Shown here in pieces: positions 58,663 through 62,822 of a stretch of 64,000 nt of DNA; within the stretch, counting starts at the first letter, position 1, and the number at the start of each line of letters is the position of its first letter. The translations under genes were made by a program, and so were the position numbers. Origin of the DNA: Thiohalorhabdus denitrificans (GTDB taxonomy: Bacteria > Pseudomonadota > Gammaproteobacteria > Thiohalorhabdales > Thiohalorhabdaceae); contig NZ_LJCP01000010.1 of NCBI RefSeq assembly GCF_001399755.1, positions 310,001 to 374,000 on the forward strand. Reading direction: 5' to 3'. The notes under the pieces were generated by a model that did no database searches, was not told the origin of the DNA, and worked only from the letters and a program-made list of their open reading frames with translations.

Positions 58663-58693
58663 TTGGCAGGACCTACCGTTTTTGGTTTATATT
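58663..58693 (+). promoter_or_regulatory. Weak candidate promoter before the M23 peptidase gene
   Basis: TTGGCA (58663-58668) and TATATT (58688-58693) are both good hexamers but are 19 bases apart, wider than optimal. The gene start is 208 bases away. Confidence 0.25.
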
Positions 58694-58900
58694 GCCGCTA
58701 CCCTCGCAATCGGCCGATGCACGCCGCCGCACCAGAGGAAGGATCGGCCCGGGGGGGAAGGAAAAGGGGGGGAACCAGGATTTGGGGAAGCACGCTCCCC
58801 GAACCGGATCCCCCGTTCCGGGGGTCTAAATCATTCCAGGGTGCCTCCCGTCCCCCGGACGGGCGCGGGCACCCTGCAAACATCCGGTTGGAGGAGCAAG

Positions 58901-59734
58901 GTGGTCCCACAAACCCGATCCTGGCTATTCGGCCTGGCGGCCCTTCTGGTGTTTCCCCAGGCCGCCGGCAGCCCGTCCCCCGTGCAGCTCAAGGGCTCCT
59001 TTCAGCAAGGGGGTTTGGTCGTGGGAAAGACGACGCCCGGGACGGAGGTCCGTTTCCGCGGCCGGCCTATCCGGGTCTCGGAGAAGGGGGCTTTCCTCCT
59101 GGGGTTCGGCCGGGACGCCCCCAGAAAGGCACAGCTCACCCTGATCAGCCCAGATGGCACTCGGGATTCCGCGGCCATCCCCGTACGGCAGCGCGCATAC
59201 GCCACCCAGCGCCTGGAAGGCCTTCCCGAGCACAAGGTCACCCCTCTGGCCGAGCACCTGCCCTGGATCCTTCTGGACCGGGCCATGGTCCAGAAGGCCC
59301 GGAGCCTGGAATCCCCCTATCCCCATTTCCATGCCGACTTCCGCTGGCCCGTGCACGGGCCCATCTCCTCGGTCTACGGATCGCAGCGGATCCTCAATGG
59401 AAAGCCCCGCAAGCCGCACACGGGGGTGGATATCGCCGCCCCCACCGGCACCCTGGTCCGTGCCCCGGCCCCGGGCCGGGTGCGTCTGGCCGAGAAGGGC
59501 CTGTTTTTCTCCGGGGGAACCCTGATCCTCGACCACGGCCACGGGCTGAGCTCCTCCTACCTGCACCTCGGAGAGATCCTCGTGAAGGAGGGCGAGCGGG
59601 TCGGAAAGGGGGATCCCATCGCCCGGGTGGGGGCCACCGGCCGGGCCACCGGGGCCCACCTGGACTGGCGCATCAACCTGCACGGTTGCAGCCTGGATCC
59701 CGCCCTGGTGGCCTCGGGGAGCCCGACCCAGTAA
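58901..59734 (+). CDS. M23-family (LytM) peptidoglycan peptidase
   Basis: GTG 58901 follows GGAGGAG and opens a 277-residue protein with a signal peptide (SWLFGLAALLVFPQAAG). A middle Ig-like domain (about 35-100) precedes the LytM domain. There the zinc motif HxxxD is present in HTGVDIAAP and the mid motif in LDHGHGLSSSYLHL. The final motif, usually HLH, is GAHLDWRI here, so one zinc-ligand His is replaced by Asp. This may alter or abolish activity, although HLD variants exist in related periplasmic proteins. It lies upstream of a lipoprotein gene. Confidence 0.88.
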   Translation: MVPQTRSWLFGLAALLVFPQAAGSPSPVQLKGSFQQGGLVVGKTTPGTEVRFRGRPIRVSEKGAFLLGFGRDAPRKAQLTLISPDGTRDSAAIPVRQRAYATQRLEGLPEHKVTPLAEHLPWILLDRAMVQKARSLESPYPHFHADFRWPVHGPISSVYGSQRILNGKPRKPHTGVDIAAPTGTLVRAPAPGRVRLAEKGLFFSGGTLILDHGHGLSSSYLHLGEILVKEGERVGKGDPIARVGATGRATGAHLDWRINLHGCSLDPALVASGSPTQ

Positions 59735-59825
59735 CCGCAACGAGCGGCAGACCCGGGCCCACCCCCATGGAAGGGCTCCTTTGCTAGGGTGGATGGAAAG
59801 GAGCCCTATACCGGGAGGGTCCCCC

Positions 59826-60395
59826 ATGCGCCTGACCGTCCTTCTCGGAGCCGCAATATGCCTGGTCCTGTCGGCCTGCAGCCCCCTTCGGGAAGGAGAG
59901 ACCTGGGCGCCCCTGCCCATAGAGCGGCTAAAGCTCGAACCGGTGACCCTCCAGGGCCCGCCTCCCGCGGACCACGCCCGGGAAACCTGCGGCCGCGCCC
60001 CGGATCAGCTCCAGGACCACCTGGTGGGCCTGCTCCGTAATCGCCTGGGTCCGGTGGAGCTGGTGCCTCCGGAGGCCGGGGGCGCCCCCGGCAGCGGTAC
60101 CCTGGAGGTTTCCATCCTCCGCTGCCGCCTGGAAAGCCATCAGTGGGACGTGGGCTCGGCCGAACCGGACATAAGCTTCTACCTGACCCTGAGCCTCCAT
60201 GTCCGCTTGCTGGATCCCGAGGGGGAGGTCTTGCTGGAGCGTATGGCGGAAACGGTGGAACAGGCCCACACCGACACCCCTACCCCGCTGTACGAGCTGA
60301 ACAACTACCCGCCGGCGCGCTGGGTGGCCGACCTGTTCTCCGAGGGGCGCTACCGGAAGAGCCAAACGGACCCCGCCGCCCTGCCCTCGCCCTAG
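59826..60395 (+). CDS. Uncharacterised lipoprotein
   Basis: The 189-residue protein has a lipoprotein signal (MRLTVLLGAAICLVLSACSP, lipobox LSAC). The mature part has two further cysteines (ETCGRAP and LRCRLES), beta-rich sequence with FYLTLSLHVRLLDPEGEVLL, and a C-terminal segment YPPARWVADLFSEGRYRK. It resembles ABC-type or LPS-assembly-like outer-membrane lipoproteins only in general form; no family is recognised. It follows the M23 gene by 91 bases with its own GGGAGGG. Confidence 0.75.
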   Translation: MRLTVLLGAAICLVLSACSPLREGETWAPLPIERLKLEPVTLQGPPPADHARETCGRAPDQLQDHLVGLLRNRLGPVELVPPEAGGAPGSGTLEVSILRCRLESHQWDVGSAEPDISFYLTLSLHVRLLDPEGEVLLERMAETVEQAHTDTPTPLYELNNYPPARWVADLFSEGRYRKSQTDPAALPSP

Positions 60396-60532
60396 CGGGG
60401 TCTTCCCGAGCCGGTCCCGGGAACGGCGTCCAAAAGCTGGTCGGGGGAATGGGGCAACGAAGTGGTCGGGAAGGAAACGGCCAGGGGGTCGGGCTGGCCC
60501 CGAACCCCCCGGCAGGGGAAGCGGCTTCCGGA
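60396..60532. other. Convergent gap between the lipoprotein gene and the DUF2173 cluster
   Basis: No strong terminator or gene was recognised in these 137 bases. Confidence 0.4.
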
Positions 60533-60871
60533 TCAGTAGTGGGCCAAGTGGTTCAGGACCCGGTAAAGCTCGTTGTAGGATACCTCGGCATTCCGCACGA
60601 TGCAGGCGAACTCGCCCAGGGCCCAGATGCTGTATTCATCTCCGTGCATGGCCCAGCCTTCCGGCGGCGTCCATCCCCGCATCCCCGAATACGCGGCGAA
60701 CAGATCCGCTTCCTGCTGCATAAGTTGGTTGGTGGCGCTACACATGTCCGAAGCGAGATCCGCATTCGCGGAGGAAATGTCCCCAACCTGCTGGGCCAGG
60801 GATCCATCCTCCCGGAAGCGGACCGCCGCAATCGTCCCCTTTACCTGCATGAGCTCGTCAAGGTTCGCCAT
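60533..60871 (-). CDS. DUF2173-like protein, third of a tandem trio
   Basis: The 112-residue protein is similar over its length to the two genes before it: start LDELMQVKGTIAAVRF, a Gly-Asp turn (VGDISS), the block SDMCSATNQLMQQE with its invariant Cys, and GWAMHGDEYSIWALG. This matches my recollection of DUF2173, a small roadblock/LC7-like family. AAGGAGG precedes ATG 60871. Role unknown; with two sisters it may form a mixed oligomer. No small GTPase partner is near. Confidence 0.8.
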   Translation of the reverse strand: MANLDELMQVKGTIAAVRFREDGSLAQQVGDISSANADLASDMCSATNQLMQQEADLFAAYSGMRGWTPPEGWAMHGDEYSIWALGEFACIVRNAEVSYNELYRVLNHLAHY

Positions 60872-60906
60872 TGCCTGGCCTCCTTCCGGATCGGTACGTT
60901 CGGGGG

Positions 60907-61233
60907 TCAGCCACCCATGACCTGGAAGGCCCGGTCATAATCGGCGTCCCTTTTCCGCAGAAAAACCGCCTGGTCCCCGTAGGAGGCCACGGCGAAATCC
61001 AGGCCCATGAAGGCGAAGCCCCGTTCGGGGTAGAAGCCCTTTTGCCCGGTGAGACGCCCCCAGCCGTCGGCCTGCATCCGGAAGATCCCCATATTGGCCG
61101 CGCACATCTGGGCCGCCATGGAGGCCAGATCATCCGTCAGGTCGCCGCGGAAGTCCTTGATCTCGCCCTGGCTGTCGAACTGGATGGCGGCAACCGCCCC
61201 AGGAAGCTCCATCAACTCGTCCAGTTTGGTCAT
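60907..61233 (-). CDS. DUF2173-like protein, second of a tandem trio
   Basis: The 108-residue protein shares its layout with both neighbours: LDELMELPGAVAAIQFDSQG, RGDLTDD, AAQMCAANMGIFRMQADG, then FAFMGLDFAVASYGDQAVFL. It lies 35 bases before the third and 39 after the first gene, with AAAGGGGA before ATG 61233. Divergence between the three is substantial, so the duplication is old or the copies have specialised. Confidence 0.82.
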   Translation of the reverse strand: MTKLDELMELPGAVAAIQFDSQGEIKDFRGDLTDDLASMAAQMCAANMGIFRMQADGWGRLTGQKGFYPERGFAFMGLDFAVASYGDQAVFLRKRDADYDRAFQVMGG

Positions 61234-61272
61234 TGCGATTCCCCTTTCTGGTTTATTTCTCGGAAGAGGCCC

Positions 61273-61617
61273 TCAGGGCTTCAACGGCCGGGCGACGCTG
61301 TCCACGGCCTCCGAGACCTGATTGAGGGACGCCTCCTCCCGGTTCAGGAAGCAGGCGGTGTCGCCCTTGACGTAGACCCCGAGCTCCGGCCCTAACATGG
61401 CCCAGCCCTCGAAGTTCTTCCATTCCGGCTGCCGCGAATAGTCGGCAAAGAGCCGCCCCTGCATCTGCATGAGAGAGGAGTTCGAGTAGCACATATGGGC
61501 GGCCATCCGTGCCTGATCCTCTGAGATATCCCCCTTGTAGTCATTAAGCTCCCCCTTGGGGGAAAATATAACCACCCCCAGGACCCCCGGAACACTGAGA
61601 ACCTCTTTGATCTTCAA
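61273..61617 (-). CDS. DUF2173-like protein, first of a tandem trio
   Basis: The start is taken as TTG 61617, after GGAGGG at five bases, giving 114 residues in line with the sister genes (112 and 108). An ATG at 61653 would add 12 residues and lies in the FNR-like box. The protein reads KIKEVLSVPGVLGVVIF, KGDISED, AAHMCYSNSSLMQMQG, FEGWAMLGPELGVYVKGDT. The invariant Met-Cys and Gly-Asp positions agree with the other two. Confidence 0.8.
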   Translation of the reverse strand: MKIKEVLSVPGVLGVVIFSPKGELNDYKGDISEDQARMAAHMCYSNSSLMQMQGRLFADYSRQPEWKNFEGWAMLGPELGVYVKGDTACFLNREEASLNQVSEAVDSVARPLKP

Positions 61618-61862
61618 AGCACCCTCCTTCCAATGCGCCTTGATCCAAATCAAGGCCCTTTCTTAATTTCAGTTCGCCACCAATACTTTATCCTGTCAAA
61701 CCAAAAAAACCTTTTATTATTTAAAGGGACGCCAATATTAAAAGGTTGTCATACATTTTTATTGCCGGGTATTGGGACTTTCCCCCATGGCCGGCGTAGG
61801 CAGGGCTTCTGGATCCAGTGGGATGAAAGGCCGGAAACACCAGAGAAGACGGAGGCAGGACA
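61618..61862. promoter_or_regulatory. AT-rich divergent promoter region of the DUF2173 trio and the HDAC-like gene
   Basis: This gap is the most AT-rich stretch in the window. It holds the perfect FNR-type palindrome at 61640-61653 and a minus-strand TTGACA (61699-61694), but no -10 at standard spacing was found for either direction. It probably contains promoters read with help from an activator. Confidence 0.5.
61640..61653. promoter_or_regulatory. FNR/Anr-type binding site
   Basis: TTGAT-CCAA-ATCAA matches the FNR/Anr/Dnr consensus TTGAT-N4-ATCAA at every specified base. Its centre is 29 bases before the TTG start of the first DUF2173 gene, so at that promoter it would act near or after the start of transcription, as a repressor would. 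It could also act on the divergent gene. Confidence 0.7.
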
Positions 61863-62822
61863 GTGAGCGAGGTCCAAAACGGACAAGCCTGCATGTACCT
61901 CGGAGCCACCCTGGGGGCCTATGGCTTCGGCGGGGGCCATCCCTTCGGCCGGGACCGGATGGAGGCCTTCCAGCGCCGCGCGGCGGAGAAAGGCCTGGAG
62001 GAGCTGGTTCGGGTCTGCTCCCCGGTCACCGCCGGTCGGGACCTTCTGGAGCGCTTCCACGCCCCGGAATACGTGGAGCGGGTCCGGACCCTTGCGGAGC
62101 GTGGTGGAGGTTACCTGGACCTGGGGGATACCCCGGCGGAACCGGGCATCTTCGAGGCGGGGTCAACCGTGGTGGGGAGTGCGGTGGACGGCGCGGAACG
62201 CCTGTTACGTGGGGATTGCACCGCGGTCTTCGTGCCCATCGCCGGACTGCACCACGCCCGCCGGGACCGCGCCTCAGGGTTCTGCGTGTTCAACGATTGC
62301 GGGGTCGTGATCGAAACCCTGAAGCGGGACCACGGGCTGCAGCGGATCGCCTACGTGGACATCGACGCCCACCACGGCGACGGGGTGTTCTACGAATTCG
62401 AAGCGGATCCGGCCGTGTGGATCGCGGATATCCACCAAGACGGCCGCACCCTGTTTCCCGGCACGGGGGACGCGGAGGAGCGGGGGAAAGGGGCGGCGGA
62501 GGGCACTAAGCTGAACCTGCCCCAGCAACCGGGAGCGGACGAAGGGGACTTCCGTACCGCCTGGGAGGAAGTGGAGGCCCATCTGGACCGGGCGCGTCCC
62601 GAATTCATCATCCTTCAGTGCGGGGCCGACAGCCTGGCCGGGGATCCCCTCACCGACCTGGCCTTCTCGCCGGCCACCCATGCCCGGGCCGCCGCCCGCC
62701 TGCAGGAACGGACCGCCTCCTGCCGCGGCGGCCTGCTGGCCCTGGGGGGAGGGGGATACAACCGCGAGAACCTCGCCGAAGCCTGGACGGAGGTGGTCGC
62801 CGCCCTGGCCCGCGTCTCCTGA
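61863..62822 (+). CDS. Histone deacetylase-family zinc amidohydrolase (AcuC/class II HDAC-like)
   Basis: This is a zinc hydrolase of the HDAC/acetoin-utilisation/acetylpolyamine amidohydrolase superfamily, 319 residues. It has the catalytic His pair in GLHHARRDRASGFCVFND, metal ligands Asp and His in YVDIDAHHGDGVFYEF, and the Asp in QCGADSLAGDPL. The GGGGYN loop ends the site. In bacteria such proteins deacetylate lysine or polyamines. GTG 61863 follows GGAGGCAGG. It diverges from the DUF2173 trio. The substrate is not identifiable. Confidence 0.9.
   Translation: MSEVQNGQACMYLGATLGAYGFGGGHPFGRDRMEAFQRRAAEKGLEELVRVCSPVTAGRDLLERFHAPEYVERVRTLAERGGGYLDLGDTPAEPGIFEAGSTVVGSAVDGAERLLRGDCTAVFVPIAGLHHARRDRASGFCVFNDCGVVIETLKRDHGLQRIAYVDIDAHHGDGVFYEFEADPAVWIADIHQDGRTLFPGTGDAEERGKGAAEGTKLNLPQQPGADEGDFRTAWEEVEAHLDRARPEFIILQCGADSLAGDPLTDLAFSPATHARAAARLQERTASCRGGLLALGGGGYNRENLAEAWTEVVAALARVS

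Follow-up and report, generated by a model that had tools for sequence, protein, structure and literature searches.

In Thiohalorhabdus denitrificans, a perfect FNR/Anr box lies just upstream of three consecutive DUF2173 genes (the trio), and we consider it a true site for the native FNR/Anr within the trio promoter, at which FNR/Anr would repress the trio when oxygen is absent. From the evidence of sequence comparison, we give this reading a probability of roughly 0.6.

The box and its locus

The locus lies in a contiguous stretch of 64,000 nucleotides, referred to here as the window, and its features are collected in Table 1. An earlier note, made from the letters of the window, had described the box as a perfect match, and TTGATCCAAATCAA does agree with all ten specified bases of the FNR/Anr consensus TTGATnnnnATCAA. 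Also as described there, the box is inside the 245-bp gap separating the trio from a divergent histone-deacetylase (HDAC)-like gene; this gap has a G+C content of 46.5% vs. 68.6% for the window. The box is the sole match to the pattern in the window, where 100 dinucleotide shuffles gave a mean of 0.01, and the expectation for a perfect box within the gap is ~0.0003. A pattern search of the whole genome (2.87 Mb) returned three perfect boxes vs. ~0.45 expected (the shuffle mean scaled up) and none for the reversed-pattern control, while sites with at most one mismatch number 30 vs. 2 for that control. The genome-wide count, which the earlier note had proposed as a check, therefore finds perfect boxes to be rare and above expectation. 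The centre of the box precedes the start codon of the trio by 29.5 nt and that of the HDAC gene by 216 nt. Taken as a prediction, the assignment of TTGATCCAAATCAA as a site for the native FNR/Anr and as part of the trio promoter is well supported.

Table 1 Features of the DUF2173 locus, in window coordinates.
Feature	Position	Strand	Remarks
DUF2173 gene 3 (gamma type), 112 aa	60533..60871	-	PF09941, E 4.3e-33
DUF2173 gene 2 (beta type), 108 aa	60907..61233	-	PF09941, E 8.5e-36
DUF2173 gene 1 (alpha type), 114 aa	61273..61617	-	PF09941, E 1.4e-30; start codon TTG 61617
Shine-Dalgarno AAGGAGGG of first trio gene	61622..61629	-	kept in sister species
Perfect FNR/Anr box TTGATCCAAATCAA	61640..61653		palindromic; CC..GG extension on both sides
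Promoter-like pair TTTGACAGGAT-N9-GTGGCGAACTG	61670..61700	-	11-mers fully conserved with sister species, fixed spacing
Divergent histone-deacetylase-like gene, 319 aa	61863..62822	+	start codon GTG 61863; PF00850, E 1.1e-73

The distance between box and trio depends on the start codon of the first gene, which is fixed by the Shine-Dalgarno sequence and by the onset of the domain at residue 2-3. TTG 61653, the pick of a mechanical open reading frame list, was rejected in favour of the TTG that follows AAGGAGGG. Further upstream, the pair of 11-mers may be read as a -35 element TTGACA (61699-61694) and, after 17 nt, a poor -10 element CGAACT (61676-61671) with an extended TGG. On this reading the trio transcript is predicted to start near 61664, which would place the box at about +11 to +25. 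The TTTGACAGGAT/GTGGCGAACTG pair is absent from the output of a consensus promoter scan because its -10 is poor; the poor -10 reading also makes an unusual sigma factor or another regulator possible. A small lipoprotein-like gene (59826-60395) with no Pfam match sits together with the trio between the genes for an M23 peptidase and the HDAC-like protein.

The box accompanies the trio within the genus

The sister species (G001) is the only other member of the genus with a trio, and its gene order is the same. Its box, TTGATCTCAGTCAA, carries one mismatch and stands at the same offset as in T. denitrificans. When the two gaps are aligned there is strong decay everywhere except at the two 11-mers, the box with its CC..GG flanks and the Shine-Dalgarno sequence. 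A third member of the genus (G002; 82% complete) lacks the trio, and at its HDAC locus there is no match to the box even when two mismatches are allowed. As in T. denitrificans, the HDAC orthologue of G002 is found at the pyrF-pyrE locus, where it immediately follows the gene for the M23 peptidase (pyrF-pyrE-HDAC-M23). The region upstream of another HDAC orthologue, in genome G173, likewise lacks the box. Since the box is missing at the HDAC orthologue of a genus member without a trio, we assign it to the trio and not to the HDAC gene; the genus pattern is a natural deletion test, if one of small numbers, in which the predicted site accompanies the trio. Relative to window positions 58682-62822, the G002 locus (L192) lacks both the trio and the small lipoprotein-like gene between the M23 and HDAC genes, the result of either an insertion or a deletion.

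FNR-type regulators and boxes elsewhere in the genome

The genome encodes two FNR/Anr-type proteins, each with a C-x2-C-x5-C motif, a central Cys and a P-E-T-x-S-R helix. One (P0001; CEGCSIRELC, SLCEIPF, PETISR) aligns along its length with FNR crystal structures (E 5e-60), and the other (P0002; CDRCSNLPAC, SICALPF, PETLSR) matches them with E 5e-39. A third CRP/FNR-family protein (L005) has a QPETFSR helix and is without the cluster cysteines, so that the E-x2-S-R motif, which reads TTGAT, is common to all three. The gene for the second FNR-like protein with cluster cysteines (L006, G000:C11:57596-58327) adjoins that of a CBS-domain-like protein.

Is this type of box in use in the genome? The FNR-like sites (TTGAY-N4-RTCAA and near forms) are mostly intergenic, and most of the sites within genes look like chance occurrences. 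For 23 of the 30 sites the surroundings were retrieved and genes were called by codon usage; narK, norC, nosR, ubiT and sqr were named from sequence, with Pfam giving domain families. The intergenic boxes precede narK-like, norC, nosR, ubiT-like SCP2, nnrS, sqr-like, Fur-family and small COX1-like genes. Because FNR-type boxes thus precede denitrification and related genes, we conclude that T. denitrificans makes use of this type of box; its gene content would fit a denitrifying sulfur oxidiser. The sqr-like gene (L127, G000:C7:343426) has an FNR-type box with a well-placed TCTAAT 21 nt downstream, and this arrangement suggests that sulfide oxidation may be FNR-activated in T. denitrificans. 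One of the three perfect boxes, at C11:59511 (L010), is upstream of a 92-aa open reading frame, with an RND pump gene on one side and the second FNR-like gene on the other, and the sister species retains this box in the corresponding position (L181).

Position of the box and proposed repression of the trio

Among the 23 FNR-activated promoters of E. coli whose start is known, 19 carry the site at -41.5 +/- 4, whereas at FNR-repressed promoters its location varies widely, reaching from far upstream up to the start, with examples at -0.5 (fnr), -11.5 (can, hisL) and +30 (yecR) (PMC3688515). The class II arrangement, with the box at -41.5 and a -10 about 22 nt downstream, is seen on neither side of the box studied here. 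For the trio, class II activation was rejected, as a start 41.5 nt downstream of the box would fall inside the gene; for the HDAC gene it was rejected as well, there being no correctly spaced -10 after the box on that side. Other genes of the same genome provide a useful comparison. Their box centres are 66-233 nt before the start codon, and the 29.5 nt of the trio is the only distance too close for class II. At the sqr-like (TCTAAT), COX1-like (TGTAAT) and norC (GATACT) genes, the box has a -10-like hexamer 21-25 nt downstream of it, consistent with a class II pattern. These promoters, together with that of nosR, share box type and regulators with the trio but have both the spaced hexamer and a start codon 66-130 nt away, neither of which is found at the trio.

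The box is therefore too close for activation from -41.5 and lies downstream of a conserved promoter-like pair, which makes repression of the trio the best reading. Its place near the putative start fits the conserved TTGACA-17-CGAACT reading, with the start itself a prediction and the -10 poor. The earlier note had likewise taken the closeness of the box to the start codon as a sign of repression, which fits the measured distance. Like the FNR-repressed promoters of E. coli (PMC3688515), the trio would have one consensus palindrome near the start and below the promoter elements, in a genome with a cluster-bearing FNR; it differs in that its start is predicted and its targets are DUF2173 genes. 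We infer FNR/Anr binding at the box, the site at which the transcript starts and the direction of control (repression), and propose the following. Without oxygen, a dimer of [4Fe-4S] FNR/Anr would form and bind just downstream of the trio promoter elements, covering the transcript start or lying slightly beyond it. The bound dimer would block initiation or early elongation, lowering trio expression. With oxygen present, the cluster would be lost and the trio expressed.

Trios outside the genus

A single scan of species genomes gave 80 loci, and 83 upstream regions were compared, comprising these 80 and the loci of a first search, with some duplicates. A box with at most one mismatch is present in 6 of the 83 regions vs. 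0.62 expected, and five of the six begin 20-60 nt before the start vs. ~0.09 expected, but the six are non-independent, two being from this genus and two from one clade (the near-identical L046 and L047, met again as L169). Outside the genus this leaves four perfect or one-mismatch cases among the 83 regions (L038, L046, L047 and L094). In the lineage of L046, L047 and L169, CTGATAAATATCAA stands at the same offset, and these genomes use perfect boxes elsewhere. The L038 case is weak, coming from a genome (G021) that is without any perfect box, and in Thiohalophilus (L094) the box is perfect and farther upstream. A further 30 loci from members of the class added no new lineage. The idea that the box is a general feature of DUF2173 systems was rejected, as most trios outside the genus are without it. 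The conservation before DUF2173 genes that the earlier note proposed to look for is thus found in the sister species, with one mismatch, and is missing from most trios beyond the genus. Judged from these comparisons, the predicted site is a lineage-level feature and a local adaptation, with conservation confined to the genus and one or two possible independent cases elsewhere.

Several loci have features of their own. In the clade with a box of its own, the gene that comes next after the trio at L046 (8751-9360), on the other strand, resembles a CRP/FNR-family regulator in sequence. Loci L048-L124 have their own promoter-like patterns before the trio, which differ from those of this genus; examples are GTGACA-17-TATGAA with TG before the -10, and GTTGCACTTTTT..TCTATCAT. 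The neighbours of the trio in other lineages are mostly housekeeping-like (LptF/G-like, aminopeptidase-like, RDD-like) and offer no functional clue.

Alternative explanations

The identity of the regulator raises the question as to whether oxygen is the signal. The box could be a real CRP/FNR-family site whose main reader is a DNR-like regulator that responds to NO or nitrate, instead of the oxygen sensor. The E-x2-S-R recognition motif is common to the three CRP/FNR-family proteins, the third of which could bind the same box despite having no cluster cysteines, and the gene for the DNR-like one of the three adjoins the box preceding the COX1-like gene. The box alone cannot discriminate between regulators; a cluster-bearing FNR is, on the other hand, the canonical reader of a perfect palindrome, and we regard a mainly DNR-like reader as unlikely. 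Of the control by oxygen, nitrate or NO that the earlier note had put forward, FNR-type control is thus backed by the native FNR/Anr proteins and by the boxes before denitrification genes, but with three E-x2-S-R proteins oxygen is inseparable from nitrate or NO. That note had also allowed for control of the divergent HDAC-like gene. The form this could take is activation from a class I position, with the box centred at about -80 relative to a promoter-like site on the + strand, CTGTCA-16-TATTAT (61693-61720), which the promoter scan does find; the box of the narK-like gene is also far upstream, at 233 nt. Against this, the HDAC orthologues of G002, at the same locus, and of G173 have no upstream box, TATTAT has not kept its place in the sister species, and FNR seldom uses class I sites (PMC3688515). 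Given the missing box at the orthologue of the trio-less genus member and the lack of a spaced -10, control of the HDAC gene does not hold up well, and class I activation appears quite unlikely.

A site without any function would be easier to accept if only the genome as a whole were considered, where ~0.1-0.45 perfect matches are expected, and its conservation is limited to one genus. The expectation for the gap is far smaller, and the box keeps its offset in the sister species despite diverged surroundings and is missing where the trio is missing; a chance match is for these reasons very unlikely. The palindrome might instead act as RNA, either as a hairpin in the trio leader or as a terminator on the + strand. 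On the + strand of the window, GCCTTGATCCAAATCAAGGC with CCTTTCTTAA after it resembles a terminator by score, and the leader folds better than shuffles (z -2.8), but the leaders of the sister species (z -0.4) and of two others show no such gain in stability over shuffles. The T tract is lost in the sister species, and the substitutions preserve TTGA-N6-TCAA and not a stable stem. An RNA role is the explanation to which we give the least credence. Repression of the trio by FNR/Anr thus remains the preferred reading.

The DUF2173 family and the meaning of the site

DUF2173 genes nearly always come as a set of three copies that have diverged from one another, in the fixed order alpha, beta and gamma (60533-61617 in the window; loci L036-L124), and one genome (G021) has two such sets. 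In the scan of species genomes all three genes are in the same order at 76 of 80 loci; at two of the remaining four no first gene was recognised, and the other two are truncated where a contig ends. The AlphaFold2 model of the beta protein has a pLDDT of 94.2, and its top Foldseek match is the roadblock/LC7 protein 3kye (E 1.8e-5), so that a roadblock/LC7 fold is predicted for it with high confidence. The model resembles the roadblock/LC7 proteins 3kye from Streptomyces, MglB and Ragulator subunits in fold (TM ~0.6-0.76), whereas sequence identity to them is only 9-20% and DUF2173 comes as three different copies in a row, with no partner GTPase noticed next to them. There is almost no literature on DUF2173, and we found none under COG4831, which we take to be a name for the family.

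In a sample of 56 relatives, SoxY is present in 26 genomes, among them all 8 that bear the trio (hypergeometric p 0.001, uncorrected for relatedness). Sulfur induces a DUF2173 gene 99-fold in A. brierleyi and 32-fold in S. ohwakuensis, one of the strongest inductions by sulfur in either of these Sulfolobaceae (PMC11323534). These archaea share the Pfam domain and sulfur oxidation with the trio-bearing organisms; their DUF2173 protein is, on the other hand, a single putative membrane protein, whereas the trio encodes three small proteins with little beyond the domain (PMC11323534). It is no more than a guess that the three proteins form a roadblock scaffold that takes part in sulfur oxidation.

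Putting these results together, we tentatively suggest, at somewhat less than even odds, that a three-part roadblock/LC7-like complex is under an FNR off-switch in this genus, while FNR activates denitrification and sqr-like genes. If true, the trio would serve sulfur oxidation in its oxic mode only, and the repression reading predicts that it is off during denitrifying growth. The regulation would be of a familiar kind, with the trio as a newly predicted target. For a trio that is widespread in genomes with sulfur-oxidation genes, oxygen or its absence would be a first condition under which to seek its function.
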